In this document: piece by piece, positions 45,401-60,050 of the stretch
Numbering within the stretch: position 1 is the first letter of the stretch
Layout: the number at the start of each line of letters is the position of its first letter
Assembly: GCF_013432195.1 (NCBI RefSeq)
Contig: NZ_JACCDB010000006.1
Coordinates: 49,843-113,842 of the forward strand
Direction: 5' to 3'
Length of the DNA: 64,000 nt
Origin: Tepidicella baoligensis
Lineage (GTDB): Bacteria; Pseudomonadota; Gammaproteobacteria; Burkholderiales; Burkholderiaceae_C
Position numbers and translations under genes: made by a program
The notes under the pieces: generated by a model
Told to the model about the DNA's origin: nothing
Databases searched by the model: none
What the model saw: the letters and a program-made list of their open reading frames with translations, nothing else

Positions 45401-46006
45401 ATGGATACCTTTCTTCTTGCCTTCCTCCTCGGCCTGGGGTTGTTCACGCTCAAGTGGCGACAGGAGCGCCGCCGCATCGTCTTGCTGGCGACGCATCTGC
45501 GCCCCTACCCGATCGAGCGGTTGATGGAGCAGATCACGCTCGGTTACCAGCGTGCGCTGGACGAAGACGATGCCGAACGGCGGGCGCAGCTCTGGTCCAG
45601 CCTGGAAGGTGCCGAAAAGCAATTGGCGCAGCAGTTCAGCCGTTTCAGCGCCGATATGGCCCGGCTGCCCGCGCAGGACGTGCGCATCTGTCGGTGGGCT
45701 CTGCCCGGTGTAGAGACGTGGTGGCCGCAATCGACCTTCGATCTGCGCGCGGCTCTCGACATCCATGCCCGCGGCTTACAGGCGGCCGTGGACAATGCCG
45801 ATGCCCTCAGTCCCAAGGCCCGAGCGTATCGATTGATGGCCGAAATGCTGTTGATGCAGCACACCTGTCACTGGTTCTGCAAGTCCAAGACCGTGGCCTC
45901 CGCGCGGCTGCTGGCCCGCCACCGCACCACCTACGAACAGGTGCTCGACGCGGTATCCGAAGCCACCCGATCGGCCTATGGCCGATGGGTGTCCGGTCAG
46001 GGTTGA
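45401..46006 (+). CDS. Hypothetical membrane-anchored protein
   Basis: 201 residues. One N-terminal hydrophobic helix (FLLAFLLGLGLFTL) followed by a basic patch KWRQERRR, then an alpha-helical cytoplasmic domain with RAQLWSSLEGAEKQLAQQFSRFSADM. No known domain is recognised. It starts 34 bp after hyi and is the last chromosomal gene before the tRNA-Leu/ICE junction. The frame, codon use and upstream spacing look real. Confidence 0.7.
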   Translation: MDTFLLAFLLGLGLFTLKWRQERRRIVLLATHLRPYPIERLMEQITLGYQRALDEDDAERRAQLWSSLEGAEKQLAQQFSRFSADMARLPAQDVRICRWALPGVETWWPQSTFDLRAALDIHARGLQAAVDNADALSPKARAYRLMAEMLLMQHTCHWFCKSKTVASARLLARHRTTYEQVLDAVSEATRSAYGRWVSGQG

Positions 46007-46022
46007 GCTGGCTGCGGCTCGC

Positions 46023-46028
46023 TAGAAT
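46023..46028 (+). promoter_or_regulatory. -10 box of the host tRNA-Leu gene
   Basis: TAGAAT, 23 bp before the 5' end of the truncated tRNA-Leu. TTGAGC at 46003-46008 is the nearest -35-like sequence, but its 14-bp spacing is short. Confidence 0.45.
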
Positions 46029-46050
46029 GCTTGCTTGGTCCCGTGACCGC

Positions 46051-46094
46051 GCCCCGATGGTGAAATTGGTAGACACAGCGGACTTAAAATCTGT
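46051..46094 (+). pseudogene. 5' half of host tRNA-Leu(UAA), disrupted
   Basis: GCCCCGA acceptor strand, D-arm GTGAAATTGGTAGACAC, and anticodon arm GCGGA-CTTAAAA-TCTGT with anticodon TAA. After the anticodon stem, no variable arm, T-arm (no GGTTCGA) or matching CGGGGC acceptor strand occurs before 46254. The 3' strand of the anticodon stem pairs only with two G-T wobbles, suggesting the junction lies in or just after CTTAAAATC. Read as the chromosomal part of an attachment site within a tRNA-Leu anticodon arm. Confidence 0.8.
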
Positions 46095-46106
46095 TTTGTC
46101 AAGTCC
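46080..46106. repeat. Inverted repeat around the junction
   Basis: GGACTT (46080-46085) and AAGTCC (46101-46106) are exact reverse complements flanking AAAATCTGTTTTGTC. This could be integrase core symmetry or a trace of an intron P1 helix. Confidence 0.45.
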
Positions 46107-46253
46107 TTCCTGCTAGAACTGCCGAGCCAGAAGGTCAATAGTGACAACGGTTTGCGGGCATCCGAGCTGTAGCTTTGCAGCTAGGCTTGACGGCCAGGGG
46201 CCAGCTAGGCGCCAGTAGATGGAGGTAGGTGTTTTCAGTGTGTTGAGCACTAC
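46095..46253. other. Junction spacer between the two tRNA-Leu sequences
   Basis: 159 bp without a gene. It contains a hairpin TAGCT-TTGC-AGCTA around 46170-46183 and a block TGCCGAGCCAGAAGGT (46120-46135) that resembles group I intron core sequence with its middle deleted. No T-arm, no open frame with family similarity and no clear promoter for the second tRNA were found. Confidence 0.5.
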
Positions 46254-46570
46254 GCCCGAGTGGTGAAATCGGTAGACACAAGGGACTTGAACAATTTGAG
46301 CCTTCGGGGGGAAACGCCCGAAGTGAAGCCCGTCAAAGTCGGCGAACGCCCTGGATGCTTTTGCATCCGAGCCAACGCCGAGCCAAGCCCAAGCTACAGC
46401 TTGGGAAGGTGTAGAGAGCAGACGGCGGGCACCTACGGCCGCAAGGCTATGGTGAAGGCGTGCTCCAGACCACGAACGCCCTGCGTTGAGCAGGGCGGCG
46501 GCGAAAGTCGAAGTGGTAAGAAAATCCCTCGCCGAAAGGCGTGCCGGTTCGATTCCGGCCTCGGGCACCA
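46254..46570 (+). tRNA. tRNA-Leu(UAA) interrupted by a group I intron
   Basis: Exon 1 is 46254-46288 and exon 2 is 46521-46570; together 85 nt. The acceptor GCCCGAG pairs perfectly with CTCGGGC, the D-arm is GTGAAATCGGTAGACAC, and the anticodon stem AGGGA/TCCCT encloses CTT-AAAA, giving anticodon TAA. The variable arm is CGCC-GAAA-GGCG, the T-arm GCCGG-TTCGATT-CCGGC, and CCA is encoded. The intron sits between positions 34 and 35, the same place as in cyanobacterial and plastid tRNA-Leu(UAA). It is followed by a terminator, so it looks like an expressed gene carried by the element. Confidence 0.93.
46289..46520 (+). ncRNA. Group I self-splicing intron (IC3-like), 232 nt
   Basis: All core helices can be drawn. 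P1 CUUGAA/UUUGAG (46286-46291 with 46295-46300) has the required U-G pair at the 5' splice site. P2 46302-46308/46317-46323. P3 CCGUC/GACGG (46330-46334 with 46421-46425). P4 CGGCG/CGCCG (46340-46344 with 46376-46380). P5 GGAUGC/GCAUCC with UUUU loop. P6 CCCAAGC/GCUUGGG (46388-46394 with 46399-46405). P7 GAGCA/UGCUC (46416-46420 with 46461-46465). P8 CACC/GGUG with a GCAA-capped inner stem. P9 CGCCCUGC/GCAGGGCG (46477-46484 with 46490-46497). The last base is G46520. No homing endonuclease frame. Confidence 0.93.
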
Positions 46571-46577
46571 ATCCAGA

Positions 46578-46607
46578 GCCGCCCCTGTTCACGCAGGGGC
46601 GGCTTTT
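46578..46607 (+). terminator. Terminator of tRNA-Leu, inside the DUF2274 gene end
   Basis: GCCGCCCCTG, 6-nt loop, CAGGGGCGGC, TTTT, starting 8 bp after the tRNA. On the other strand the same bases encode the last residues (KAAPA) of the DUF2274 protein. Confidence 0.88.
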
Positions 46608-46831
46608 CCGTTCTTGGGCTGTGTGCGCTTGAATCCCCGATCCCCCACCATGAACGCCTCCAGCATGTGCGGGATCAGCGTCACGGCATCGACCGCCTCG
46701 CCATACGCCTGCGCGTGCAGCGCGGCGTAGCGGTCGAGGTCGGCTTTCAAGCTGGCCGGGCAGGCAAAGGTCAGTTTGACGCTTTCGGTCTTGGGCAGCG
46801 GCCCGAGCCGCAGCTTCTTGGTAGTGCTCAT
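46589..46831 (-). CDS. DUF2274 domain protein
   Basis: 80 residues, beginning MSTTKKLRLGPLPKTESVKLTF, with LDRYAALHAQAYGEAVDAVTLIPHML. DUF2274 proteins resemble small ribbon-helix-helix-like proteins and are the usual last gene after trbI in Tn4371-type elements; the role is unknown. It overlaps trbI by 4 bp (ATGA). Confidence 0.85.
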   Translation of the reverse strand: MSTTKKLRLGPLPKTESVKLTFACPASLKADLDRYAALHAQAYGEAVDAVTLIPHMLEAFMVGDRGFKRTQPKNGKAAPA

Positions 46832-48105
46832 TGCGAAGCTCCCCGATTGAAGAACAGCGGCTGGTACGGCCGCAGCACCAGATCCCGGTTGACGATGATT
46901 CGCACGGGCAGACCAGGCCGCTCGGTCAGCGTCGGCTGGATGTTCATGTTGCGTCGGGTGATCTCCTGGCCGACCTGATTGATGCTGTCCTGGGCGCTGT
47001 CACGCCCGGCAATGACGATGCGGTTGCCGTCCTGGCGGTTCTCTGGCGCGGCCAGCTCTGCGCCGACGCCCAGCAGCGTCGTCAGCACCGCACCGGCAAA
47101 GATGCGGTTCCAGTGCCAGTCCACGTCATCCTCCAAGCCCGCGTAGCCGGCCGGGTCGGTGCCGACAAGGTTGTCGAGCGTCAGCGAGGACGTGTCGGGC
47201 AGGATGATCCGGTTCCACACCACCTGCACGCGGCTCTGTCCGTAGCTGACCTGGCTGTTGTAGCGCCCGAGGATGCGCGACCCCTGCGGGATCAGCAGGA
47301 ACTTGCCGGTGGCTGTGTCATAGACCGGCTCCGTCACAGTGCCGATTACGTCGCCCGGCAAGTCCGACTTGATGCCTGTCACCAGCGCACCGGCGATCAC
47401 CGTTCCGGCCATCACCTGATACGGCGACGCGGGCAGCGCCAGATTGCCGGAATTGCGGGTTTCCGTAGAACCGGCTTTCAGGAACGACTCTTTCTGGTCT
47501 TGCCGGTTCTGCACGGCGGTCGGGTCGGCGGGCTGGGCCGCCGTCGAGGCAGGCCCAGCAGCGAGCGGATCGAAGGCCGCAAGCGTACTTGAAGCCCCCG
47601 GCGCTGCCTGCGCGACCGTGGCGGCGGTCTGCCCTTGGCCGCCCGAGCGGAAGAACACCGACGAGGCCGCCGCCGCGTCCGCCTCCTTGCGTAAGGCATC
47701 TTCGGGATCATGGCCTGGCGGCGAATAGCCCGGCGTCACCGGCTGCTGCGAAGCGACGATGGCCGGGCCAAGGTCGCCGGGCAACGGCGGCCCCAGCTCG
47801 GGCACATCGGGCGGTAAGGCTGGTGGCAGCTTCGAGTAGTCCGTCGGCAGCGCATCCAGCCCTTCGGACTTCGAGACGCGATCGACGTTGTAAAGCTCGG
47901 TTTGCTCGCCCGTACCGCGCCGCTGCGGTTGCAGCGACCAGATCGTGGCCCCAAGGACGGCGACCGACAGGCCGCCGACGAGGATGGCAAGCGTGCGCCG
48001 GTTCAGGCGAGTGACCGGACGCGGCTGGGCGCGCAGCGCCACCGCTTCCGGCGCGACCTTGCCTGCCTGCGGCGTGGCGAGGTCGGGGGTGTCGTCTTGG
48101 CTCAT
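46828..48105 (-). CDS. trbI: TrbI (VirB10-like) conjugation protein
   Basis: 425 residues. Short cytoplasmic N-terminus, membrane helix LAILVGGLSVAVLGATIWSL (about 34-55), a proline-rich periplasmic stretch, and the C-terminal VirB10 beta-barrel (GTVIAGALVTGIKSDLPG, LLIPQGSRILGRYNSQVSYGQSRV). It spans both membranes in the type IV secretion channel, bridging TraG/VirB4 energy to the outer-membrane ring. Adjacent to trbG with a 2-bp gap. Confidence 0.95.
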   Translation of the reverse strand: MSQDDTPDLATPQAGKVAPEAVALRAQPRPVTRLNRRTLAILVGGLSVAVLGATIWSLQPQRRGTGEQTELYNVDRVSKSEGLDALPTDYSKLPPALPPDVPELGPPLPGDLGPAIVASQQPVTPGYSPPGHDPEDALRKEADAAAASSVFFRSGGQGQTAATVAQAAPGASSTLAAFDPLAAGPASTAAQPADPTAVQNRQDQKESFLKAGSTETRNSGNLALPASPYQVMAGTVIAGALVTGIKSDLPGDVIGTVTEPVYDTATGKFLLIPQGSRILGRYNSQVSYGQSRVQVVWNRIILPDTSSLTLDNLVGTDPAGYAGLEDDVDWHWNRIFAGAVLTTLLGVGAELAAPENRQDGNRIVIAGRDSAQDSINQVGQEITRRNMNIQPTLTERPGLPVRIIVNRDLVLRPYQPLFFNRGASQ

Positions 48106-48107
48106 GG

Positions 48108-49100
48108 TCAGTTCCTCCGCGCAACGCCGTCCGTGCGCTCAATTCGCACCACGTCGCCCTTGTCCCCGCCCAGGCGCAGTTCGGCGGCACCGAACAGCCG
48201 ATCCACGATGTAGTACGGCGAGCGGAAGCGGTAGTTGACCAGTTGCCCGTCGCCTTCCGGCCCGATCACGAACAGCGGCGGCAGCTCGCCTTGCGCGATG
48301 CCGGCGGGGAACTGGATATAGACCTTCTGCCCGTCGTCGAAGGCGCGCAGCGGCTTCCACGGCGGGTTGCTACCGCTGACCGCGTAGCGGAAGCGCAGGT
48401 TTTCCAGCGACAAGCCGGAGTCCACCGGCGCGGCGGCGCTGGCCGCCTGCGCCTGGCGCTGTAAGGCCAGCATCCGGTCACGCGGATACTCCCAAGAAGC
48501 CGACGCCATCCACGTCTTTTCCGTCGAAGCCAACTCCAGCAGGTACGTCCTGCGGTTGGTGGTAATGACGAGATTGGTCTTGAGGCCTGAGCGGATCGGC
48601 TTGACCAGCACATTGACGCGCAGGTCAGCACCGCTGCCGCTCGACGTATCGCCCACGATCCAGCGCACGGTATCACCAGCGGCCACCGTCACCAGCTCCT
48701 CGCCCGGCTGGAGCGAAATCACGGTCACGCGGCCCACGGCCGCATAGACCTGATAGAGCGCGCCATCGGTGAATGGCCACACCTGAATTGCGTTGACGTA
48801 GCCCTCGCGCGTGGGCGCGACGCGGGCCTCTGCATTGGCGCGCGAGACGCGCACCTTCTCGTCGGCTGGCTCCGGCGTGGGCTTGGCGTCCTCGGCTTCG
48901 GGCAATGGCTTCAACTGCGCCGGCATCGGCAGCACCTCGGGCACCGCCACCACCTCCACCGGCGCGGGTGGCTCGGGTAGCGGCTGGGCCTGCACCGGCT
49001 CATCGAGCGAGATGGTCGGCGGTGGCTTGCCCTGCGTGGCGCAGCCCGCCAGGGCAAGCAAGATCACCGGCAAGGCGGATTTACGGAAAAGATCATTCAT
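48108..49100 (-). CDS. trbG: TrbG (VirB9-like) conjugation lipoprotein
   Basis: 330 residues. N-terminal lipoprotein signal with lipobox LLALAGCATQG, a proline-rich segment (about 27-90), and the VirB9 domain from EARVAPTREGYVNAIQVWPFTDGALYQVY to the C-terminus (FAVIGPEGDGQLVNYRFRSPYYIVDRLF-like). Outer-membrane ring component partner of TrbI. The ATG at 49100 overlaps the trbF stop; a longer open frame to 49940 is only a shadow in trbF. Confidence 0.95.
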   Translation of the reverse strand: MNDLFRKSALPVILLALAGCATQGKPPPTISLDEPVQAQPLPEPPAPVEVVAVPEVLPMPAQLKPLPEAEDAKPTPEPADEKVRVSRANAEARVAPTREGYVNAIQVWPFTDGALYQVYAAVGRVTVISLQPGEELVTVAAGDTVRWIVGDTSSGSGADLRVNVLVKPIRSGLKTNLVITTNRRTYLLELASTEKTWMASASWEYPRDRMLALQRQAQAASAAAPVDSGLSLENLRFRYAVSGSNPPWKPLRAFDDGQKVYIQFPAGIAQGELPPLFVIGPEGDGQLVNYRFRSPYYIVDRLFGAAELRLGGDKGDVVRIERTDGVARRN

Positions 49101-49801
49101 GGCTTGGCTCCTTCGGAAGAATCCAGTTCGCGGCTCCACGACAGGCCGTTGACGTAGATGCCCAGGGGGTTCTTGCGCAGGCGTTCTTCGATGCGCGGCG
49201 GCTGGAGCACGATGGACACCACGGCCGTCCACCTCTCCAGGCCCGCCGCGGCGCCGTTGACGTAGCGGCGCTCCGTCCAGCGCACGTTGAAAGACGTGTC
49301 GCTGGCGCGCACGACGCTGGTGATCTGCACCGTCACCGACTCCTTGCCGATGCGCGCGAACGGGTCGTTGACCCGTGCGTAGTCGTTGAGCACGGCCGCG
49401 CCCTTGTCGGTCGTGTAGTCGTAGGCGTCGAGCCAGTTCTGGCGGACGACGATGGGGTCGATGGACAGCGAACGCACCAGCGTCACGAAGCGCGCGATGT
49501 GGTGCGCGGTCTGCGCATCGTTGGGCCGGTACGGCGTGGCGGCCTCGCCCACGGCGCGCACCTGGCCCGCGTTGTCCACCTCCACGACGTAGGGCGTCAC
49601 GAAGGACTGCGCCGAGCGCCACACCAGGCCGCCGGCCATCAACAGCGCGAGCGTCAGGCAGCCGAAGGCCATCAGGCGCCAGTTCTTCGCCTGCACGCGC
49701 GGCGAGCCGATACGGTCGTCCCACACTTGGCCGGCAGCTTGGTACGGCGTGGCAGGCTGCGGCGTGTCGGCATAGCGCACCTGCGGTTTCTTGAATCGCA
49801 T
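49097..49801 (-). CDS. trbF: TrbF (VirB8-like) conjugation protein
   Basis: 234 residues. Cytoplasmic N-terminus, one membrane helix (LMAFGCLTLALLMAGGLVW, about 43-62), then a periplasmic NTF2-like VirB8 domain (FVTLVRSLSIDPIVVRQNWLDAYDYTT, WTERRYVNGAA). Scaffold linking inner-membrane components. It lies 12 bp after trbL. Confidence 0.95.
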   Translation of the reverse strand: MRFKKPQVRYADTPQPATPYQAAGQVWDDRIGSPRVQAKNWRLMAFGCLTLALLMAGGLVWRSAQSFVTPYVVEVDNAGQVRAVGEAATPYRPNDAQTAHHIARFVTLVRSLSIDPIVVRQNWLDAYDYTTDKGAAVLNDYARVNDPFARIGKESVTVQITSVVRASDTSFNVRWTERRYVNGAAAGLERWTAVVSIVLQPPRIEERLRKNPLGIYVNGLSWSRELDSSEGAKP

Positions 49802-49813
49802 GGTCAGTTCTCC

Positions 49814-51199
49814 TTATGAATCGGAATCGCGCAGGCTCGGCCCCTGGCCGGAGCCGCCGCCATCGCCACCGCGCAGCGCGTGGGCGGTGGTGGTCGCGGC
49901 GTGGGTGAGTTGCTGGCGGCGATGCAGCCGCTTGGCCCAAGCGGGCTGTTCCTGTGTCTGCGCCGTAGCGGCGCCGGATGCGGCCTCGCCTGCGGCACCC
50001 TGACCGGATGCCGCACCCGCGCCGCCATCGGCAGCAGAGCCATTCCAGCCAGCGCGGAAGGGAGCGGCCATGCGTTGCCCGGCAGCGGAAGCGCGGGATG
50101 CAGCGCCTCGCCCGGCTGCCTGCGCGCCGGTCTTGGCGACGTTGCCCAGGCCCACCATCGCGCCCTTTGCGCCGCCGCCAGCGGCGGCGGAACCGGCCTG
50201 GAACGCCGACTTCGCACTGCTGGGCGCCGACGTGGCGGCGCGCGCACCGCTACCGGCCAGCTTGGCGGCAGCCGGGGCCATGCGCGCACCAGCAGCCACG
50301 GCGCCACCCACGCCCGTCGCGGCGGCGCCGATGGCGACGGCCGTGCCGGCAGCGCCGACAGCAGCACCGGCCATTGCGCCCGCGCCGAGCTGCGGCGCAC
50401 CGGAGACGAGGCCCGTGGCGATGCCGGGGCCGAAGATCCCTAGCGCCAGCAAGGTGAGCGAGGCCAGCATGATGACCAGCGCGTGGTCAATAGACGGCTC
50501 GGCGGGATGGACTTGGAACTGAGCGAACAAGCCCGAGCCGATACCGACGATCACGGCCAGCACCAGAACCTTGACGCCGGAGGCCACCACGTTGCCCAAG
50601 ACCTTTTCGGCGAGGAACGCGGTCTTGTTCCAGAGCGCGAATGGCACCAGCACGAATCCGGCGAGCGTGGTCAGCTTGAACTCGATCAGCGTGATGAACA
50701 GTTGGATCGCCAGCACGAAGAAGCACAAGACCACGACCAGCCACGCGAGGAACATCACCACGATGGGGTCGAGGTTCACGAACACTTCGGGAAAGCCCGC
50801 CATCTCGCCGATCTGCTCCAGAATCGGCGCCCCGGCGTCGATGCCGGTTTTCGCCAGCCGGCCCGGCTGCAAGAAGTTCTCCATCGTGATGGCCGAGCCG
50901 GTGGCGGTGATGCCCAATCCCGCAAACGAGCGGAACACGATGCTGGCCAGCCAGTTGAAGTTATTGATGATGTAGGCGAAGGCACCGACGTAGAGCACCT
51001 TGCGCAGCAGCTTGGCGATCACGTCCTCGCCCTGGCCGGTGGCATGGCTCATGGCCCAATACAGGCCGGCGATCGTCATGTCGATGACGATCAGCGTGGC
51101 CGTGAGGAACGCCACTTCGCCCCGCAGCAGCCCGAAACCCGAGTCGATATAAGCGGCAAAGGTGTTGAGGAATTGGTCGATGATGGTCACGTCATTCAT
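49814..51199 (-). CDS. trbL: TrbL (VirB6-like) polytopic membrane protein
   Basis: 461 residues. N-terminal two thirds hold six to seven membrane helices (for example AGLYWAMSHATG..., VVMFLAWLVVVLCFFVLAIQLFITLIEF, ALVIMLASLTLLALGIFG); the C-terminal third is an Ala/Gly-rich, low-complexity tail ending in basic residues. Forms the inner-membrane channel of the secretion system. Starts within the 3' end of the TrbK-like gene (ATGA). Confidence 0.93.
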   Translation of the reverse strand: MNDVTIIDQFLNTFAAYIDSGFGLLRGEVAFLTATLIVIDMTIAGLYWAMSHATGQGEDVIAKLLRKVLYVGAFAYIINNFNWLASIVFRSFAGLGITATGSAITMENFLQPGRLAKTGIDAGAPILEQIGEMAGFPEVFVNLDPIVVMFLAWLVVVLCFFVLAIQLFITLIEFKLTTLAGFVLVPFALWNKTAFLAEKVLGNVVASGVKVLVLAVIVGIGSGLFAQFQVHPAEPSIDHALVIMLASLTLLALGIFGPGIATGLVSGAPQLGAGAMAGAAVGAAGTAVAIGAAATGVGGAVAAGARMAPAAAKLAGSGARAATSAPSSAKSAFQAGSAAAGGGAKGAMVGLGNVAKTGAQAAGRGAASRASAAGQRMAAPFRAGWNGSAADGGAGAASGQGAAGEAASGAATAQTQEQPAWAKRLHRRQQLTHAATTTAHALRGGDGGGSGQGPSLRDSDS

Positions 51200-51516
51200 G
51201 GCGTGTCCTCCGGTTCGGCGGGAACGGCCGGCGCCATGCCATCGGCCGGTTCCTCGAAGCTCGGCGGGATCGGCGGCAGGTCGGCCAGCGTCTGGTATTC
51301 ATCCGGCCCGGCCTGGCCGGAGAAGAAGCGCCGCCGGAAGGCTTCGGCGGCGGCACGGCAAGCGTCCTCGCCCGTGGCCTGCCGGTCGGCCGCGCATTGC
51401 GCGCGCAATGCCTTCAGCCGCACGGGATCGGCGGCCAGGGCATCGGCAAGGTGGTCGGCCGGCTGCTCGCCGCAAGCGGCCAGCAGCGCGACACACAGGA
51501 CGAGGACGCATCGCAT
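51196..51516 (-). CDS. TrbK-like small lipoprotein, putative entry exclusion factor
   Basis: 106 residues. Signal peptide MRCVLVLCVALLAACG with a lipobox (LLAACG), a short helical section with two further cysteines (QCAADRQ and DACRAAAEAF), and a Pro/Glu-rich tail. Position between trbJ and trbL matches trbK of RP4, whose lipoprotein blocks entry of like plasmids; sequence similarity to RP4 TrbK is weak, so this is by context. It corresponds to the short TrbK-alt-type ORF of Tn4371 elements. Confidence 0.75.
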   Translation of the reverse strand: MRCVLVLCVALLAACGEQPADHLADALAADPVRLKALRAQCAADRQATGEDACRAAAEAFRRRFFSGQAGPDEYQTLADLPPIPPSFEEPADGMAPAVPAEPEDTP

Positions 51517-51528
51517 GGCGGCCTCCCG

Positions 51529-52254
51529 TCAGTTGCCGTAGAAGTTCACGGACTGCGGCGTGTACGGCGTGCCGTCGCCGAGGAAGCGCCGCCGCACCTC
51601 GCGGGCGCGCTCCGTGGCTGCCGCCTGCCGCGCCAGCTCCAGCGACGCCGCCCGGTCTTGCGTGATCTGGAGCCGCTGCGACTGGATCGACTGCTTGGCC
51701 TGCAAGGCCAGCAATTGATTCATGGCCTGCATCGCCTGCAACGCACCTTCGGCCGACTGACTCTTGCCCACAAGATCGGCCAGCACGCTTTCGTCTTCGC
51801 CCAGGTTCTGCGACACCTGCGCCTGCATCTGCATGGTGGTCTGCAAGCCGTTGAGCGTGTTCCGCCAACGCTCCTGCGCGTCGCGGTACATCTGGTCGCC
51901 GCTGACGGTGGCGGCGTACTGCTCGGGATACAGGCGCGCGAACTCCCGATCCAGATTCGTCACGTCGTAGGCCAAGCCCCTGGCCTGGGCGATCAGCCGC
52001 TCGGTCGTTGCCAGATTGGCGCGCAACTGGTTCACCACGCTGGACGGCAGGCTGGCGAGGTTGCGCGCCTGGTTCATCAGCATCTGTGCTTCGTTCTGAA
52101 GCTGCTGGATCTGGTTGTTGATCTGCTCCAGCGTGCGGATCGCGGTTAGCGTGTTCTGCACGAGGTTCGTCGGATCGACCACGACCCATTGCGCATGGGC
52201 GGTGGCGGTGCAAAGCATGGCCGCGATGGCGGCGGCGATAAGGCGCTTTTTCAT
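51529..52254 (-). CDS. trbJ: TrbJ (VirB5-like) conjugation protein
   Basis: 241 residues. Cleavable signal MKKRLIAAAIAAMLCTATAHA followed by QWVVVDPTNLVQNTLTAIRTLEQINNQIQQLQN, a coiled-coil-rich periplasmic protein; C-terminal YTPQSVNFYGN. VirB5 family proteins sit at the pilus tip. Overlaps trbE by 4 bp. Confidence 0.93.
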   Translation of the reverse strand: MKKRLIAAAIAAMLCTATAHAQWVVVDPTNLVQNTLTAIRTLEQINNQIQQLQNEAQMLMNQARNLASLPSSVVNQLRANLATTERLIAQARGLAYDVTNLDREFARLYPEQYAATVSGDQMYRDAQERWRNTLNGLQTTMQMQAQVSQNLGEDESVLADLVGKSQSAEGALQAMQAMNQLLALQAKQSIQSQRLQITQDRAASLELARQAAATERAREVRRRFLGDGTPYTPQSVNFYGN

Positions 52255-54704
52255 GACAGGTTCTCCAGGGGTTGGTCAGCGAGGGAGCCCGGCGCGAGGC
52301 CGGGGAACGAGGGCAGCAGGTCGGCCGCCCAATCGAGGCCGCGATGGCGCAGCCAGGCGCCCGCGAAGCCGGGCACGCCGGCGTCCAGCAGCACGCGGTC
52401 TATGTCGCGCTGGTCTTGCGGCGTGGAAGCGCCCGCAAACGCCAGAGCCGCCGGCCCCAGGTCGAGGTCGAACAGGCGGTTGCCGAGGCGGGATTGGTAG
52501 TAGTAGTCGCGCTTGGGCTGCGCGGTGGCGACGATTTCGATCTGCCGCCTGTTGAGGCCGAAGCCCTCGTAGATCGTGCGAATCTGCGGCTCGGTCGCCT
52601 GCGGGTTGGGCAAGAAAATCCGACTCGCGCAGCTCTCGATGATCGCGGGCGCGATGCTCGAATCCTTGATGTCGGCGAGGCTCTGCGTGGCGAAGATGAC
52701 GCTGACGTTCTTCTTGCGCAGTGTCTTGAGCCACTGGCGGATACGCGCGGCAAACACCGGGTCATCGAGGAACAGCCACGCTTCATCGAGGATCAGCAGC
52801 GTGGGCGCCCCGTCGAAGCGTTCATCGAAACGCGCAAAGAGGTAATGCAGCACGGCCATGACGGCGGCCTTGCTGTGCATCAGCTCCTCCATCTCGAAGC
52901 ACTGCACGTCGGCCATGCCCAGCCGGTCGTGGTCGGCGTCCAGCAGCTTGCCGTGGGCGCCACCCAGCACATAGGGCGACAGCGCTTGTCGCAGCGTGTT
53001 CGATTGCAGCAGCACGGAAAGTCCCGTCATCGTGCGCTGCTCCGCCGGCGCACCGGCGAGACTTCCCAGCGCCGACCAGATAGCCGCCTTCTCGTCGGGG
53101 CCGATCGCCACGCCTTCGTGCAGCAAGCGGCCTTCGATCCATTCGGCGGCCCAGGTGCGGTAGCCCTCACGGTCGATGCGCGCGAGTGGCTGGAAGGCGA
53201 TTTCGCCATCCGTGCCCAGGTCGTAGTGTTCGCCGCCCAGGCCGAGGATGGCGGCCCGCATGGAGCGGCCCATGTCGAAGGCGAAGATGCGCGAGCCGCG
53301 ATAGCGGCGAAATTGCATCGCCAGCGTGGCGAGCAAGACCGACTTGCCCATGCCGGTCGGCCCCGCGACCAGCGTGTGGCCCACGTCGCCGATGTGCGTC
53401 ACCAGCCGGAACGGCGTGGCGCCGTCGGTGCGTGTCACGATCAGCGGGGGGCCGTCGAGGTGTTCGTTCTTCTCCGGCCCGGCCCATACCGCCGACACCG
53501 GCATCATGTGCGCCAGATTCAGCGTCGAGACGATGGGCTGGCGCACGTTGGCGTAAGCATTGCCGGGGAGCGAGGACAGCCAGGCATCCACGGCATTGAG
53601 CGTTTCAGGGATGGTGACGAAGCCCCGACCCTGGATGACGCGCTCCACCATGCGCAGCTTCTCGTCTGCGACGGCGGCGTCCTCGTCCATGACGGTGACG
53701 GTCGCCGTCAGATAGCCGAAGGCGACTTGATCGCTGCCCAACTCCTGCAAGGCGGCGTCGGCATCGGCGGCCTTGTTGTTGGCGTCGGTATCGACCAGCG
53801 GGCTTTCCTGCTGGAAGATCGTTTCGCGTAGCAGCGCGATGACGTTCTTGCGCTTGGCGAACCACTGGCGGCGCAGGCGGGAAAGTTCTTTTTCCGCCTC
53901 GGCTTTGTCGAGGCAGAGAAAGCGCGTACTCCAGCGGTACGCAAAACCGAGGCGGTTGAGGTCGTCCAGAATCCCCGGCCAGGTCGAGGTCGGGAAGCCC
54001 CGCACCGACACCACCCGCAGGTGCTGATCGCCTAGCATGGGCGCCAGGCCGCCGATCAGTGCGGAATCGGTGAGCAGCGCGTCGATGTGGAACGGCACTT
54101 CGGGCACGCCCACGCGATAGCGCCGCGTCGAGATGGTCGCGTGCAGGTAGGTCAGCGTCTGCGCGTCATCGAGCCAGTCAATTTCCGGCATCACGCCGTC
54201 GAGCAGGTCAAAGACGCGATCCGTTTCCGCGACGAAGGCTTGCAGCCGCTCGCGCCAGTCCACGCCATTTGTCGGCGTGTTCTCGTAGAGCATCTTGGCT
54301 GCACGAGCGCGGGATTCCTCCGGCGGCAGGTACACCAGCGTCAGGTGATAGCCGCTCTCGAAGTGATGGCCGGATTCCTCAAACGCGGCCCGGCGTTCTT
54401 CCTCCACCAGCCACGAAAGCGGCTCGGGAAACTCCGAGCGCGGATAGTCGGCGGCCGCATGGCGCTCGGCTTCGATGAATAGCGCCCAGCCCGATCCCAT
54501 GCGGCGCAGCGCGTTGTTCAGTCGCGCCGACGTGGCGATCAGTTCGCCTTGCGTCGCGCTGTCGAGGTCAGGCCCGCGAAACCGGGCCGTGCGCTGGAAA
54601 CTGCCGTCCTTGTTCAAGACGACGCCCGGCGCGACCAGTCCGGCCCAGGGCAGCCAGTCGGCCAGCAAGGCCGGGCGCTGGCGGTATTCGGCGAGATTCA
54701 GCAT
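52251..54704 (-). CDS. trbE: TrbE (VirB4-like) conjugation ATPase
   Basis: 817 residues. N-terminal CagE/VirB4 domain (about 1-420), Walker A in VAGPTGMGKSVLLATLAM (about 450), Walker B in LLILDEAWLFLDDP and the Q-rich FATQSLADI. Energises pilus assembly and substrate transfer. Normal length and unbroken. It lies 15 bp after trbD. Confidence 0.96.
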   Translation of the reverse strand: MLNLAEYRQRPALLADWLPWAGLVAPGVVLNKDGSFQRTARFRGPDLDSATQGELIATSARLNNALRRMGSGWALFIEAERHAAADYPRSEFPEPLSWLVEEERRAAFEESGHHFESGYHLTLVYLPPEESRARAAKMLYENTPTNGVDWRERLQAFVAETDRVFDLLDGVMPEIDWLDDAQTLTYLHATISTRRYRVGVPEVPFHIDALLTDSALIGGLAPMLGDQHLRVVSVRGFPTSTWPGILDDLNRLGFAYRWSTRFLCLDKAEAEKELSRLRRQWFAKRKNVIALLRETIFQQESPLVDTDANNKAADADAALQELGSDQVAFGYLTATVTVMDEDAAVADEKLRMVERVIQGRGFVTIPETLNAVDAWLSSLPGNAYANVRQPIVSTLNLAHMMPVSAVWAGPEKNEHLDGPPLIVTRTDGATPFRLVTHIGDVGHTLVAGPTGMGKSVLLATLAMQFRRYRGSRIFAFDMGRSMRAAILGLGGEHYDLGTDGEIAFQPLARIDREGYRTWAAEWIEGRLLHEGVAIGPDEKAAIWSALGSLAGAPAEQRTMTGLSVLLQSNTLRQALSPYVLGGAHGKLLDADHDRLGMADVQCFEMEELMHSKAAVMAVLHYLFARFDERFDGAPTLLILDEAWLFLDDPVFAARIRQWLKTLRKKNVSVIFATQSLADIKDSSIAPAIIESCASRIFLPNPQATEPQIRTIYEGFGLNRRQIEIVATAQPKRDYYYQSRLGNRLFDLDLGPAALAFAGASTPQDQRDIDRVLLDAGVPGFAGAWLRHRGLDWAADLLPSFPGLAPGSLADQPLENLS

Positions 54705-54719
54705 CGCGGCGTCCTCCCC

Positions 54720-54992
54720 TCAAACATCCAGCAGCGGCTTGTGTTTGATGTGGCGGGCGAACACGGCCATGAACTGCGGATCAAGGTGCGCGCCCCAGAC
54801 CGCCAGCGAATGGCCGACGATCCAGAGCACCACGCCCGGTATCCACAATTGCAGGCCCAGCCCGACAGCGGCGGCCAGCGTGCCGTTGGCGATCGCCACG
54901 GTGCGCGGCGCACCGCCCAGCAGAATCGGCTCGGTCAGCGAGCGATGCAGCGGCACCTCGAAGCCGGCGGCGAAGGTGTCCGGGGCACTCAT
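54720..54992 (-). CDS. trbD: TrbD (VirB3-like) conjugation protein
   Basis: 90 residues. Two closely spaced hydrophobic helices (VAIANGTLAAAVGLGLQLWIPGVVLWIVGHSLAV split in two), preceded by FEVPLHRSLTEPILLGGAPR, the VirB3 signature. Inner-membrane partner of TrbE. Overlaps trbC by 4 bp. Confidence 0.92.
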   Translation of the reverse strand: MSAPDTFAAGFEVPLHRSLTEPILLGGAPRTVAIANGTLAAAVGLGLQLWIPGVVLWIVGHSLAVWGAHLDPQFMAVFARHIKHKPLLDV

Positions 54993-55372
54993 ACGACGGC
55001 CCCGCCGGAGAAGCTGAAGAACGACAGGAAGAAGCTAGAAGCGGCGAACGCGATGGACAGGCCGAAGACGATCTGGATCAGCTTGCGGAATCCGCCCGAC
55101 GTATCGCCGAAGGCGAGCGCGAGGCCCGTGGCGATGATGATGATGACGGCCACGATGCGCGCCACCGGCCCCTGGATGGATTCGAGGATGGATTGCAGCG
55201 GGCCTTCCCACGGCATCGAGGAACCGGCGGCCTGCGCGGTTCCGGCCAGGAACAACAGCAGCGCGGCCAGCAGCAGCCCTTGTCCCGCAGGACGGGCCAG
55301 GCAGCGCAGCCGCGCAAGACGCAAAGCCGGATTTGCAGAAAAACGGAAAGCAGGAATGGTCATCTGCGTCAT
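54989..55372 (-). CDS. trbC: TrbC (VirB2-like) pilin
   Basis: 127 residues. Long signal region ending near TAQAAGSSMPWEGPL, then two hydrophobic helices (VARIVAVIIIIATGLALAFG and IVFGLSIAFAASSFFLSFF). In RP4 the equivalent pilin is processed and cyclised; the mature part here is of similar size. It overlaps trbB by 4 bp. Confidence 0.93.
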   Translation of the reverse strand: MTQMTIPAFRFSANPALRLARLRCLARPAGQGLLLAALLLFLAGTAQAAGSSMPWEGPLQSILESIQGPVARIVAVIIIIATGLALAFGDTSGGFRKLIQIVFGLSIAFAASSFFLSFFSFSGGAVV

Positions 55373-56421
55373 GGCAGTTCTCCAAGTGAGTCAGGGGATG
55401 GGGAAGTCGCCGCAGCAGGTGCGGCATCGGGAAGTGGCTGAAGCTCGGGAAACGGCGTTTCCAGCGCGTCCGCCAGTTGGTAGCCCACTCCGTCGAAGCT
55501 GACGACACGGGCGATGCTCTCGATGCGGCGCTTGCGCCCGCGTCCGGCGATGTGGATCACCACGTTGACCGCCTCGGCGATCAGCGCACGGGGCGGATTC
55601 ACCGCCACTTCGAGAATCAGTTGCTCCAGGCGCAGCAGCGCGCCGAGCGCGGAGCCGGCATGGATCGTGGCGATGCCGCCGGGGTGGCCCGTGCCCCATA
55701 CCTTGATGAGATCCAGCGCCTCGGCGCCGCGCACTTCGCCAACGACGACGCGATCAGGCCGCAGGCGCATGGACGAGCGAACCAGCTCGGTCATCGACAC
55801 CACGCCTGCGCGCGTGCGCAGGGGAACGTGGTCACGGGCCGCGCATTGCAGCTCCACCGTGTCTTCGAGCACCAGCACGCGGTCGCCCGTGGCGGCAATC
55901 TCGGCCAGCAGCGCATTGGCCAGGGTCGTCTTGCCGCTGCTGGTAGCGCCGGCGATCAAGACGTTCTGCCGCTCGCGCACGGCGCGAACGAGAAAGCCCG
56001 CTTGCGCGCTGGTCATCATCCCGTCGATGACGTACCGCTCCAGCGGAATGACGCCGATGGCGCGCTTGCGCAGCGCGAAGGCTGGCCCTGGCGCGGCAGG
56101 CGGCAAGATGCCCTCGAAGCGTTCTCCCGTTTCCGGCAACTCGGCCGACAGCAGCGGTTGGCCGCGATGCACCTCCGCTCCGACATGGGCTGCCACGAGG
56201 CGGATGATTCGCTCACCGTCCGCTTCGGACAGTTCCACGCCCATCGGCGCCCGACCACTGGAAAGCCGATCCACCCAGAGGGTGCGATCGGGATTCAGCA
56301 TCACCTCCACCACGTCCGGGTCTTCGAGTGCCGCGGCGATCAGCGGCCCCATCGCCGTGCGCAGCATCTGGATGCGGCGGTCGAGCGACGTGGCGCTCAT
56401 GGACTGCGGAACGGCGCTCAT
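55369..56421 (-). CDS. trbB: TrbB (VirB11-like) secretion ATPase
   Basis: 350 residues. N-terminal domain (about 1-150), Walker A IAGATSSGKTTLANAL, Asp/His box DRVLVLEDTVELQC, Walker B DRVVVGEVRGAEALDLIK, and His box GTGHPGGIATIHAGSA. Hexameric ATPase of the type IV system. The start overlaps the end of the RHH gene. Confidence 0.96.
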   Translation of the reverse strand: MSAVPQSMSATSLDRRIQMLRTAMGPLIAAALEDPDVVEVMLNPDRTLWVDRLSSGRAPMGVELSEADGERIIRLVAAHVGAEVHRGQPLLSAELPETGERFEGILPPAAPGPAFALRKRAIGVIPLERYVIDGMMTSAQAGFLVRAVRERQNVLIAGATSSGKTTLANALLAEIAATGDRVLVLEDTVELQCAARDHVPLRTRAGVVSMTELVRSSMRLRPDRVVVGEVRGAEALDLIKVWGTGHPGGIATIHAGSALGALLRLEQLILEVAVNPPRALIAEAVNVVIHIAGRGRKRRIESIARVVSFDGVGYQLADALETPFPELQPLPDAAPAAATSPSPDSLGELP

Positions 56422-56882
56422 GACGCACGCTCCTGCGCTTGCGCGGCTGCCGCCGCGTCTTCCATCCGCATCGGGTCGGGATGCAGTTCTTCCACCACGT
56501 CGCGCACCAGGCTGCGCCCGCGCAGCAGGTGCCGGCCCAACTGTTCAACGAACTGCTCGAAGCGCGCTTTGCCTTGGGCGCGGGCGGCCTCTTGGTGCGC
56601 CTCGGGGACTGGCGTGCTGACCGTGAGGTAGTAGCGAATGAACAGCGCCAGTGTCTCGATCTGGATGTTCTGGTCGCGCTCCAGGCGTTCGGTTTGGCGC
56701 GACAGGCGATCCAACCGCTTGGCGAGGGCCGCCTCGCGCTGGTCGGCGGCATCGGGCGACAGCCAGGACGCCAAGGCAGCGGCGACGATGGACGACTTGG
56801 ACACGCCTTTCATGGCGGCCAGCTCGTCCAGGCGCTTGGCGTGCTCTGGCTGGATGAATAGGTTGAGGCGGTAGTGGCTCAT
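56418..56882 (-). CDS. Ribbon-helix-helix (CopG-like) protein
   Basis: 154 residues. N-terminus MSHYRLNLFIQPEHAKRLDELAA with GVSKSSIVAAALASWL is a ribbon-helix-helix DNA-binding fold; the rest is helical with arginine-rich coiled coil and a hydrophobic patch ALFIRYYLTV. Located between traG and trbB as in Tn4371 elements; may regulate the transfer operon or assist the relaxosome (inference). It overlaps both neighbours by 4 bp. Confidence 0.82.
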   Translation of the reverse strand: MSHYRLNLFIQPEHAKRLDELAAMKGVSKSSIVAAALASWLSPDAADQREAALAKRLDRLSRQTERLERDQNIQIETLALFIRYYLTVSTPVPEAHQEAARAQGKARFEQFVEQLGRHLLRGRSLVRDVVEELHPDPMRMEDAAAAAQAQERAS

Positions 56883-58891
56883 AGCTCGATTCCGTCGTTG
56901 GGGTCGAGGGAAGCCAGCCGCGCCGTGCGCTGCATGGCCGGGTCAAGCTGGCGAGGAAGGGGAAGCGGCAGGTCGTCGTCGTCATCGAGCAGCGCGAGGT
57001 CGGCAGTCGGCACGGCCAGCTCGGGGGCGTAAGTGACGGTTTCGGAGAGTTCGGGTTGGCGGCGCGGGCCGCCGTCATCCGTGGAACCCAGGCCATCGGC
57101 GGATGCCGTGCCCGGTGCGGCGGGCACGGCGGGAACCGCCAACCCGCTCCAGTCGTCGGGCCGCGATGGCGGCGCGTCTGCGTACTGCCCGCCCGCCAGT
57201 ACGGGCGGCGACAGCACGCGACGCTTGAAATTGCCGTCCGCGTAGTAGCGCAGCTTCTTCGCCTTGATTGGCGCGACGCTGGACACCATCACCACCGCCT
57301 CGTCGGGCGGAAGCTGCATCACTTCGCCCGGCGTCAGCAGCGGGCGCGCGGTTTCCTGGCGCGACACCATCAGGTGGCCCAGCCACGGCGCGAGCCGATG
57401 GCCCGCGTAGTTGCGCTGGGCGCGCAGCTCGGTGGCCGTGCCCAGCGTCTCGGAGATCCGTTTGGCGGTGCGCTCGTCGTTTGTGGCGAACGTCACGCGC
57501 ACATGGCAGTTGTCGAGGATGGAGTGGTTTTGCCCATACGCCTTGTCGATCTGGTTGAGCGACTGCGCGATGAGGAAGCTGCGGATGCCGTAGCCCGCCA
57601 TGAAGGCCAGCGCCGTCTCGAAGAAGTCCAGGCGCCCCAGCGCAGGGAACTCATCGAGCATCAGCAGCAGCTTGTGGCGGCGCGCGATGCCATCGGAGCC
57701 ATCGAGCGATTCGGTGAGGCGCCGCCCGATCTGGTTGAGGATCAAGCGGATCAGCGGCTTCGTGCGCGAAATGTCCGAAGGCGGCACTACGAGGTACAGC
57801 GATACCGGGTGCTCGGCGGAAATGAGGTCTGCAATGCGCCAGTCGCAGCGCGACGTGACTTCGGCCACCGTAGGGTCTCGGTACAGGCCGAGGAACGACA
57901 TGGCGGTGGACAGCACGCCCGAGCGCTCGTTGTCGCTCTTGTTGAGCACTTCGCGCGCCGCAGAGGCCACCACCGGATGCGGGCTTCCACCGTTCCCGTT
58001 CATCAGGTGGGGCGTGGTCATCATCCGGTGCAGGGTCAGCTCGAAGGGACTGGCCGGATCGGAGAGGAAGTTGGCGACGCCGCGCAGCGTCTTGTCTTCG
58101 CCCGCATACAGAACATGCAGGATGGCGCCCACCAGCAGCGCGTGCGAAGTCTTCTCCCAATGGTTGCGCTTCTCCAGCGCGCCTTCGGGATCGACCAGAA
58201 TGTCCGCGATGTTCTGCACGTCGCGCACCTCATGCGCGCCGCGCCGCACCTCCAGCAGCGGGTTGTAGGCCGCCGACTTCGCATCCGTGGGGTTGAACAG
58301 CAGGCAATGCGAGAAGCGCGAGCGCCAGCCGGCGGTGATCTGCCAGTTCTCGCCCTTGATGTCATGGACGACGGCGGACGCGGGCCAGGAAAGCAGCGTT
58401 GGCACCACCAGGCCGACACCCTTGCCGCTGCGCGTCGGCGCGAAGGTCAGGACGTGTTCCGGGCCTTCGTGGCGCAGGTACTGGCGGTCGTGCTGGCCGA
58501 GGAACACGCCGGCCGGCTGCGTGAGGCCCGCCTTGCGAATGTCCTCCGCGTTGGCCCAGCGGGCCGAGCCGTAGGTGGTGACGAGGCGTGATTGGCGCGA
58601 GCGCCAGATCGACATGCCGATGGCGACCAGCACAGCGACAAGGCCGCTGCCGCCGGCAAACGCACCGCCGATGTCGAAAACACGGGGCGCGTAGGCGTCG
58701 AAGAAGAACCACCACTCGAACAACCGCCACGGGTGGTAGATCGGCGTACCCAGGAAATCAAACCAGGGCGAGCCAAGGCGTAGCTGATAGCCCAGAGCGG
58801 CGGCTGTCCATTGCGTGGCGCTCCAGACGCCAGCGATCACGATGCCGAATACCACGGCGATCTGACCGAACAGTACGTTCGTCCCTTGCAT
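56879..58891 (-). CDS. traG: TraG/VirD4 type IV coupling protein
   Basis: 670 residues. Two N-terminal membrane segments (about 9-30 and 75-95), Walker A FAPTRSGKGVGLVVPTLL, VHDIKGENW, Walker B LLLMLDEFPALGRL, and C-terminal tail rich in Asp/Leu. It brings the relaxase-DNA complex to the channel. First gene of the minus-strand module in the window. The upstream region holds an ISL3 element 208 bp away, which may separate it from its native promoter. Confidence 0.95.
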   Translation of the reverse strand: MQGTNVLFGQIAVVFGIVIAGVWSATQWTAAALGYQLRLGSPWFDFLGTPIYHPWRLFEWWFFFDAYAPRVFDIGGAFAGGSGLVAVLVAIGMSIWRSRQSRLVTTYGSARWANAEDIRKAGLTQPAGVFLGQHDRQYLRHEGPEHVLTFAPTRSGKGVGLVVPTLLSWPASAVVHDIKGENWQITAGWRSRFSHCLLFNPTDAKSAAYNPLLEVRRGAHEVRDVQNIADILVDPEGALEKRNHWEKTSHALLVGAILHVLYAGEDKTLRGVANFLSDPASPFELTLHRMMTTPHLMNGNGGSPHPVVASAAREVLNKSDNERSGVLSTAMSFLGLYRDPTVAEVTSRCDWRIADLISAEHPVSLYLVVPPSDISRTKPLIRLILNQIGRRLTESLDGSDGIARRHKLLLMLDEFPALGRLDFFETALAFMAGYGIRSFLIAQSLNQIDKAYGQNHSILDNCHVRVTFATNDERTAKRISETLGTATELRAQRNYAGHRLAPWLGHLMVSRQETARPLLTPGEVMQLPPDEAVVMVSSVAPIKAKKLRYYADGNFKRRVLSPPVLAGGQYADAPPSRPDDWSGLAVPAVPAAPGTASADGLGSTDDGGPRRQPELSETVTYAPELAVPTADLALLDDDDDLPLPLPRQLDPAMQRTARLASLDPNDGIEL

Positions 58892-59113: not shown

Positions 59114-60050
59114 TCAAGTGGGTTGCGGGGCATGAGGATTGATGGCCTGGAAGTCGAGCTTGCCGGCGATCAGGAAGATGACGGTTCTGATGGTGGCCAG
59201 GCGCACGAAGCCACGGGCGCGGCGCTTGGCGGCCTGGAACAGGCCGTTGATGGCCTCCAAGAAGCCGTTGGTCTGGCGGGTCTGCGCCCAGGCGACGATG
59301 CCCTCCAGGTGGCGACGCACGAGCGCGGCCACCTCCTTCATCGGTTCAACCTTGGAGTGCATGACGCAAGTGCACCAGTGCTGGAGCATGGTGCGCACGA
59401 CGTTGATCTGCTTGCGCTCGAGGATCTCTCGCAGCTGCTCCTTGTAGACCCAGGCGCGGGCCGTGCGCACCGTGGTCATTCTGGCGATCAAGGCGTCCAG
59501 ATCGGCGGCGGCCTCGGGCCTGAGGCGGCTGCGATCCTTCAGCAGCGACCAGCGCAGACCCTTGAGCGACTTGTCGCTGCGCTGCTCGATGCGGCGCATC
59601 TTGTCCACCGCCGCACTGGCATGCCAGACAACGTGGAACTTGTCGAAGGTGATGCGGGCGTTGGGCAGGAACTCAGTGCAGCCCTTGATGAAGGCGGGTG
59701 ACATGTCGATGCTCACCGAGGTGATCTGCTCGGCCGGGCAGCCGTGCGCAGCAAGGTCCGCTGCCAGCGCTTGGAGCGTCTTGGCGTCACGGCCCTCGGT
59801 GACGAACAGCACCCGGCGTGCGGCGGCGTCGGCAGCCAAAGTGGCGTAGTCGTGGCCTCGGGCACGCGAGGTCTCGTCGATGGCCAGAGCCGTGACCTGG
59901 CTGAAGTCGGCCAGGCCCAGGGCGATCTCAACGTAGCGCTCGCACACGGCCATCACCCGGTGGGCCGACTCGCCCACGATGCGCGCCACGGCGGCAAACG
60001 GCATCTGCTGCGCCAGCATCAGGATCAGCGCCTCGAACAGCAGCGTGAAG
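59114..60050 (-). pseudogene. ISL3 transposase, C-terminal part
   Basis: About 310 codons with the DDE_Tnp_ISL3 region: LAIDETSRARGHDYATLA, SVSIDMSPAFIKGC, ITFDKFHVVWHASAAVD, and the C-terminal TNGFLEAINGLFQAAKRRARGF. The stop lies inside the left terminal repeat. The 5' part of the same gene is at 62594-62903; joining them across a single copy of GCGTGAAG restores one frame of 412 codons. Confidence 0.92.
60043..60050. repeat. Target-site duplication of IS66 element, left copy
   Basis: GCGTGAAG, repeated exactly at 62594-62601. Confidence 0.93.

Follow-up and report, generated by a model that had tools for sequence, protein, structure and literature searches.

A group I intron splits the replacement tRNA-Leu(UAA) gene of an integrative and conjugative element and may hide its attachment core from the element's own integrase

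Introduction

The closest described system to the one reported here is tRNA-dependent lysogeny in actinobacteriophages, whose authors speculate that a carried tRNA gene may act as a second attB (Guerrero-Bustamante and Hatfull 2024, PMC10865867; here and below, cited statements are taken from excerpts of the papers). In a 64,000-nucleotide stretch of the draft genome of Tepidicella baoligensis (the whole stretch is called the window, and coordinates are window positions unless a locus is named), we describe an integrative and conjugative element (ICE) that lies in a broken host tRNA-Leu(UAA) gene and carries an intron-split gene for the same tRNA at 46254-46570. With tRNA-dependent lysogeny the ICE shares a short core in a host tRNA gene, a tRNA that is rebuilt at neither end, and a tyrosine integrase beside the attachment (att) site; it differs in being an ICE of a proteobacterium, in its tRNA-Leu(UAA) target, and in that the core of the carried tRNA is split by a group I intron. 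In the excerpt of PMC10865867, self-splicing introns are not mentioned.

Like the intron described here, the group I introns of cyanobacterial tRNA-Leu(UAA) and Azoarcus tRNA-Ile are small, lie in the anticodon loop and contain no open reading frame (ORF) (PMC3984707), and group I introns are also known in tRNA-Ile2 of Acidovorax and Burkholderia (PMC8450103). Unlike these known bacterial tRNA introns, the present one belongs to an element whose insertion has destroyed the corresponding host gene. A 2014 review places the phage introns then known in protein genes (PMC3984707), whereas we found group I introns in phage tRNAs too. IStrons resemble our case in that a group I intron lessens the harm a mobile element does to its host, but they splice out of the gene entered, while here the intron sits in the replacement gene (PMC4227781). 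In the open-access literature, covered by titles and the beginnings of abstracts with subscription papers and preprints outside the scope, we found no report of group I introns in tRNAs of tRNA-replacing elements and no paper joining a group I intron with tRNA-dependent lysogeny.

In archaea, tRNA introns are removed by proteins. It is from there that the protective idea for tRNA introns comes, and it is older than our work: an intron-containing archaeal tRNA-Thr gene beside a tRNA fragment has been ascribed to an integrating element (PMC3293823). As at our locus, a fragment and an intron-bearing tRNA stand together at an integration border, and the intron has been considered a protection from further integration (PMC3293823). 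The archaeal intron, however, is thought to have entered at attP by recombination, whereas here a ribozyme lies in a separate, whole gene on the element.

Results

A complete tRNA-Leu(UAA) gene, interrupted by a group I intron, occupies 46254-46570 (forward strand). An earlier note on this DNA had proposed a 232-nucleotide (nt) intron with splice sites at 46288/46521, and ARAGORN in intron mode called the same gene with the same sites, a tRNA-Leu(taa) with a 232-nt intron written as 'gactt-Intron-aaaat'. The gene thus called consists of a 5' exon (46254..46288, +), which is unchanged in two related loci described below (L191 and L207), the intron (46289..46520, +), and a 3' exon with an encoded CCA (46521..46570, +). 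Without its intron option the program called nothing at 46254-46570; when presented with the joined exons, it reported an 85-nt tRNA-Leu(taa), as the note had expected of a tRNA finder. The intron interrupts the anticodon loop directly 3' of position 34 (U34), which we take to be the intron site of cyanobacterial tRNA-Leu. Behind the tRNA lies a possible terminator hairpin (46577..46608, +), its extent judged by eye; the site listing gives a smaller site at 46585-46602, a weak signal with one site found versus 0.6 expected.

The group I intron model of Rfam (RF00028) did not reach its gathering score, a curation threshold and no structural feature, in the default search. At a relaxed threshold it matched 46279-46468 with 31.2 bits (gathering 50) and an E value of 4.9e-6, so that the model match predicted by the earlier note was obtained, though below the gathering level. 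We drew helices P1, P2, P3, P4, P6, P7, P8 and P9 on the window's own sequence and aligned 26 introns from tRNA-Leu genes of bacterial genomes and viral contigs. In this alignment the drawn structure was paired in 94.0% of 1344 cells and showed changes on both sides in 32 of 55 pairs; its covariation score was 0.386 versus 0.133 in shuffles, none of 500 shuffles being as good, and it was only 0.040-0.069 when the partner was shifted by one to three columns. P7, for which covariation had been suggested in the note, was 100% paired with both-side changes in three of its five pairs, and P3 was 100% paired with such changes in three of six. The P3/P7 pseudoknot, formed by the core helices of a group I intron, is therefore present, and the helices of the core hold across all 26 introns. 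A U-G pair at the 5' splice site was found in 26 of 26 introns, the terminal G before the 3' splice site was invariant, and the folded precursor was stabler than its dinucleotide shuffles (z -3.96). With these features, the intron is predicted with high confidence to be able to splice.

Neither the fate of the host's own gene nor a recurrence of the arrangement elsewhere had been part of the earlier note. The 5' half of a broken host tRNA-Leu(UAA) gene lies 162 bp upstream of the intron-split gene, at 46051..46091 (+) on the attL side, and ends in the 9-bp att core CTTAAAATC (46083..46091, +), which corresponds to tRNA positions 32-40, spans the anticodon loop and runs into the stem, and is common to attL and attR. 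The 162 bp between the core and the replacement tRNA (46092..46253, +) form the ICE end. A matching tRNA-Leu 3' half, which starts with CTTAAAATC and adjoins a tyrosine integrase gene, is found on contig C47 of the same genome; joined, the two halves give an intact tRNA-Leu(taa) by ARAGORN, while attL and attR each hold half a tRNA only. From the broken halves and the shared core it follows that the ICE sits inside the anticodon loop, that the host gene was destroyed, and that a replacement was brought along. Beside the DUF6806 gene in genomes of the same family, five of seven loci have an intact intron-less tRNA-Leu(taa), one has an intron-bearing gene and one has none; the 201-amino acid (aa) gene left of attL was not found in these seven loci. 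The broken host half is what turns an unusual intron into a tRNA-replacement system, and the ICE almost certainly replaces the very tRNA-Leu(UAA) that its insertion destroyed. The intron splits the att core 3' of CTT, three bases in. Were the carried gene free of its intron, it would be identical to attP across the 9-bp core and to host attB across 13 bp; the intron-split gene retains no core match in its DNA.

The tRNA complement of the draft genome (47 contigs) comprises 46 matches to RF00005, 45 of which were typed by ARAGORN. The Leu anticodons among the typed tRNAs were CAG (two), TAG, CAA and GAG, and no other tRNA-Leu(UAA) was present among the tRNAs found in this draft; the one untyped match is 74 nt long and therefore too short for a tRNA-Leu. 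Among 28 host-side ORFs of the window, chosen mechanically, there are 17 TTA codons. Because no other tRNA-Leu(UAA) was found, the suggestion of the earlier note that a required tRNA may depend on a mobile element is strengthened, and the UUA codons of the host, whose assembly is a draft, would depend on the tRNA gene of the ICE.

The same ICE end lies behind other host tRNA halves in two metagenome-assembled genomes (MAGs), one of Lysobacterales (L191) and one of Hydrogenophaga (L207). Identity to the window was 65.6% (L191) and 69.8% (L207) in the host flank left of the core, 92.5% and 83.8% from the core to the tRNA, 99.1% and 94.2% in the tRNA with its intron, and 90.7% and 89.4% in the next 1.5 kb; in this comparison the tRNA with its intron is the best-conserved part of the ICE end. 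Gaps aside, the exons of L191 are identical to those of the window and 3 of the 232 intron bases differ; L207 has an identical 5' exon and differs at 4 positions of the 3' exon and 14 of the intron. By blastn, the DNA 3' of the broken half also occurs in Cupriavidus plasmids. With 46000-46620 as blastn query, 1300 plasmid records were matched, almost all of them at 60-80% identity; in pCTX-M3 (L004), the one such record examined, the match is an intron-split tRNA-Leu(UAA), its splice sites assigned by eye, between DUF3883 and AAA ATPase genes and near resistance genes. An att-like core stands 166 bp before this tRNA, without a host half.

A scan of species genomes for an intron core word gave at least 119 stretches, 80 of which were analysed. 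After correction by rule, splice sites were resolved in 71 of these 80 loci (31 of 163 oriented loci were left without resolved sites). A script then looked within 3 kb for a junction-spanning core with the adjoining tRNA arm, the reversed core serving as control. In 11 of the 71 resolved loci the script found an intron-split tRNA accompanied by a broken tRNA of its own isotype (control, 0/71). Since at least four bases were required right of the junction, the script was blind to Ile2 genes, and three Ile2 loci, in Polynucleobacter (L182), Comamonas (L210) and Gulbenkiania (L246), were added by eye to give a total of 14/71. The isotypes of the 14 loci are Leu(UAA), Ile2(CAU) and Thr(UGU), and their hosts are Alpha-, Beta- and Gammaproteobacteria and one Acidobacteria MAG, in which the 6.4-kb contig with the case may have been misbinned. 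At L180, L201, L202 and L242 the broken half and the intron-bearing tRNA flank an integrase gene, recognised with an iterated profile from eight seeds; the Pfam match alone is weak for L242. Two further Leu cases were seen in Burkholderiales genomes (L315 and L325). These counts, from a sample chosen by intron, suggest that introns are enriched in replacement over resident tRNAs; the enrichment over the resident rate is only suggested, because intron-less replacements exist and resident intron genes are not rare.

An intron-blind search for tandem tRNA-Leu genes, using a pattern of one orientation and one spacing range, returned two of 369 genomes of the class, G000 and one that has two complete tRNA-Leu genes, and G000 alone among 300 of the order; it missed G558 and G412, which homology found. 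Intron-split tRNA-Leu(CAA) genes occur in two of the 19 other Burkholderiales genomes in which we found intron-type tRNA-Leu, and in L320 and L322 such a gene is split at gactc|aaaat, that is, with C and not U at the 5' splice site. Genome G572 has, within one 14-kb stretch (L362), both an intact tRNA-Leu(caa) and a degenerate, core-containing 3' half. At L188, two matches to the intron core word stand in opposite orientation at 5651-6149 of that locus, about 500 bp apart at most. Intron-split tRNA-Lys(ttt) genes are present in Microbacterium and Tsukamurella genomes (L227 and L228), with no core within 3 kb.

A similar order was seen in phages. In Gordonia phage Daredevil (L008), an integrase and an attP-like core are followed, 169 bp beyond the core, by a tRNA-Lys(ttt) gene that contains a 238-nt intron; the core word has a single occurrence in the 90,490 bp of the phage, which viral contig L139 matches in length and integrase. 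Daredevil integrates at tRNA-Lys-TTT, is listed without a tRNA of its own and forms clear plaques (PMC10865867); its intron tRNA was perhaps overlooked earlier, as tRNA finders without an intron mode miss such genes. Viral contig L077 has an integrase, core and intron-bearing tRNA-Lys(ctt) in Daredevil's order, and L443 has core and tRNA as in L077. Four pattern scans of viral contigs, which required a Lys or Ile2 core at fixed distances 5' of a tRNA D-arm, returned 62 stretches; in 29 of them the core lay inside a complete tRNA, and the other 33 remained. The three viral intron-bearing tRNA-Lys genes keep 7-9 bp of the core, and in none does this match span the split. The script test for a broken half gave 0/58 among resolved viral loci, because free phage genomes carry no host half. 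The intron-blind tandem tRNA-Leu search of viral contigs gave 12 matches and no clear core beside a replacement tRNA-Leu; ten look unrelated, L306 is a tRNA array, and L307 contains tRNA-like pieces uncalled by ARAGORN. The group I intron was in a tRNA with a UAA anticodon in 45 of the 58 viral loci with resolved splice sites (L060-L139), and many of these tRNAs seem far from any integrase. On viral contig L138 (about 1057-2504), 103 bp separate an intron-bearing tRNA-Leu from the start of an integrase gene downstream of it, as if the 3' end of this tRNA served as an ordinary att site. We also considered a trade-off in which intron-less phages have swapped anticodon stems; it fits that the Daredevil gene without its intron would match attP over 16 bp versus 9-11 bp in seven intron-less viral cases, and it was dropped, the L077 match without intron being only 8 bp.

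The genes that follow the intron-split tRNA identify the element. Its conjugation genes, assigned by Pfam, together span 46828..58891 on the reverse strand and encode TrbI (46828-48105), a CagX/TrbG-like protein (48108-49940), TrbL (49814-51199), a DUF4141 protein (51529-52254), a TrbE-like ATPase (52251-54704), a T2SSE ATPase (55369-56421) and a coupling protein (56879-58891), in keeping with the position at an ICE end given in the earlier note. The ICE also encodes a DUF3363/relaxase protein. The combination of trb-type transfer genes with coupling protein and relaxase, which we take to be typical of Tn4371, fits a Tn4371-like ICE and supports the Tn4371-type label of the note as far as these genes go. 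Cargo genes include those for a desaturase, a GMC oxidoreductase and an RND pump, among others, and an ISL3-family transposase gene lies within the ICE at 59114-60019. From 46092 to the end of contig C44 the ICE measures 51.0 kb, and its other end is on contig C47, 12.3 kb from the end of that contig; its length is at least 63 kb, counting the C44 and C47 parts only, between which further contigs could lie. The integrase is a 401-aa tyrosine integrase with PF00589 and an arm-binding domain; its gene begins some 180 bp inward of attR, and in the circular ICE this gene would be followed in turn by attP, the intron-split tRNA and the transfer genes. Relatives of this integrase were found in 10 of 300 genomes, G000 included. 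They lie at a broken tRNA-Leu in G000 and G632; in the other eight genomes (10 places) there was no T-arm motif within 420 bp upstream.

Discussion

We propose that recombination by the ICE integrase between attP and the anticodon loop of the host tRNA-Leu(UAA) gene destroyed that gene, and that the cell would survive by transcribing the precursor from the ICE and splicing it to a normal tRNA-Leu(UAA). An unbroken replacement gene would be a second attB near attP, open to self-integration, deletion and tandem insertion. The intron, three bases into the core, would remove the att site from the DNA and restore the sequence only in the RNA. To this reading as a whole, in which an ICE in the host tRNA-Leu(UAA) brings an intron-split replacement whose core is hidden from its own integrase, we assign a probability of roughly 0.52; taken by itself, the proposal that shielding from the element's own integrase is the selected function of the intron is about evenly balanced. 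The wider idea, that several kinds of integrating elements across bacteria, which destroy a host tRNA at the anticodon loop, have repeatedly recruited self-splicing introns as att shields for same-isotype replacement tRNAs, is put forward tentatively, at slightly below even odds. Another conceivable role of the intron, evasion of anticodon nucleases, was set aside, as the mature tRNA would be without intron.

Several observations weigh against shielding. The anticodon loop is the usual site of bacterial tRNA introns anyway, so that the splitting of the core carries no independent weight as evidence for it. The site search found no promoter-like site for the intron-split tRNA gene. In G632, an element with a related integrase lies at a broken tRNA-Leu(CAA), and the sole intact copy seen there is intron-less. 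Among the 33 viral stretches with a free core, the tRNA-Lys beside it was intron-bearing in only three (L139, L077 and L443, two of them near-identical) and intron-less in seven, of which six match the attP-like core over 11 bp and one over 9 bp; phage Whirlwind keeps GACTTTTAA in an intron-less tRNA-Lys. Such replacement tRNAs, which lack an intron and keep the core whole, show that the intron is dispensable for some elements. Daredevil's own intron tRNA may not work, given the clear plaques of this phage (PMC10865867). Finally, intron-type tRNA-Leu was found in at least 19 of 299 other Burkholderiales genomes, and no broken half was seen nearby in 14 of the 16 resolved loci among them. The last point, together with the intron-less replacements, speaks for an ICE that does replace the tRNA but merely captured a gene with a neutral self-splicing intron, the intron having no role in integration. 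It is joined there by a copy in an Azonexus tRNA array (L206), which has the same 5' exon as the ICE gene, and by a genome of the same family (L346) whose resident gene at the corresponding locus contains the intron. Such a passenger intron would, however, require repeated capture, for same-isotype halves accompany 14 of 71 intron tRNAs, in three isotypes and several classes, and phages add Lys; we regard it as a real possibility, if a doubtful one.

The intron could also guard the cell's only tRNA-Leu(UAA) mainly against rival elements using the same site and not against the ICE's own integrase, a role already suggested for element-borne tRNA introns of archaea (PMC3293823). Resident intron tRNAs without a nearby element would benefit from this too, but it leaves the closeness of the intron tRNA to attP in the ICE and in Daredevil unexplained, and the integrase gene just downstream of the intron-bearing tRNA-Leu of L138 indicates that other sites of such a gene may still serve; we hold defence against rivals to be unlikely as the main role. 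That intron and tRNA are non-functional relics, with tRNA-Leu(UAA) supplied by a gene missing from the draft assembly, would agree with the Rfam score under the gathering cut-off, the lack of a promoter-like site in the site search and an assembly in 47 contigs. Against this stand the conserved intron fold with its covariation, the unchanged exons and few intron changes relative to L191, and, in the draft genome, the lack of another tRNA-Leu(UAA) found and the TTA codons of the host-side ORFs, and we consider it very improbable.

If shielding from the element's own integrase is true, bacterial tRNA group I introns, usually taken as neutral passengers, would gain a concrete job, and the old idea of a guard against integration would become a one-variable comparison between an element with and one without its intron. 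The present gene was missed both by ARAGORN without its intron option and by Rfam at the gathering score, which suggests that common tRNA annotation overlooks such genes. Our results also suggest that, for reading its UUA codons, the host apparently depends on the ribozyme of a mobile element.
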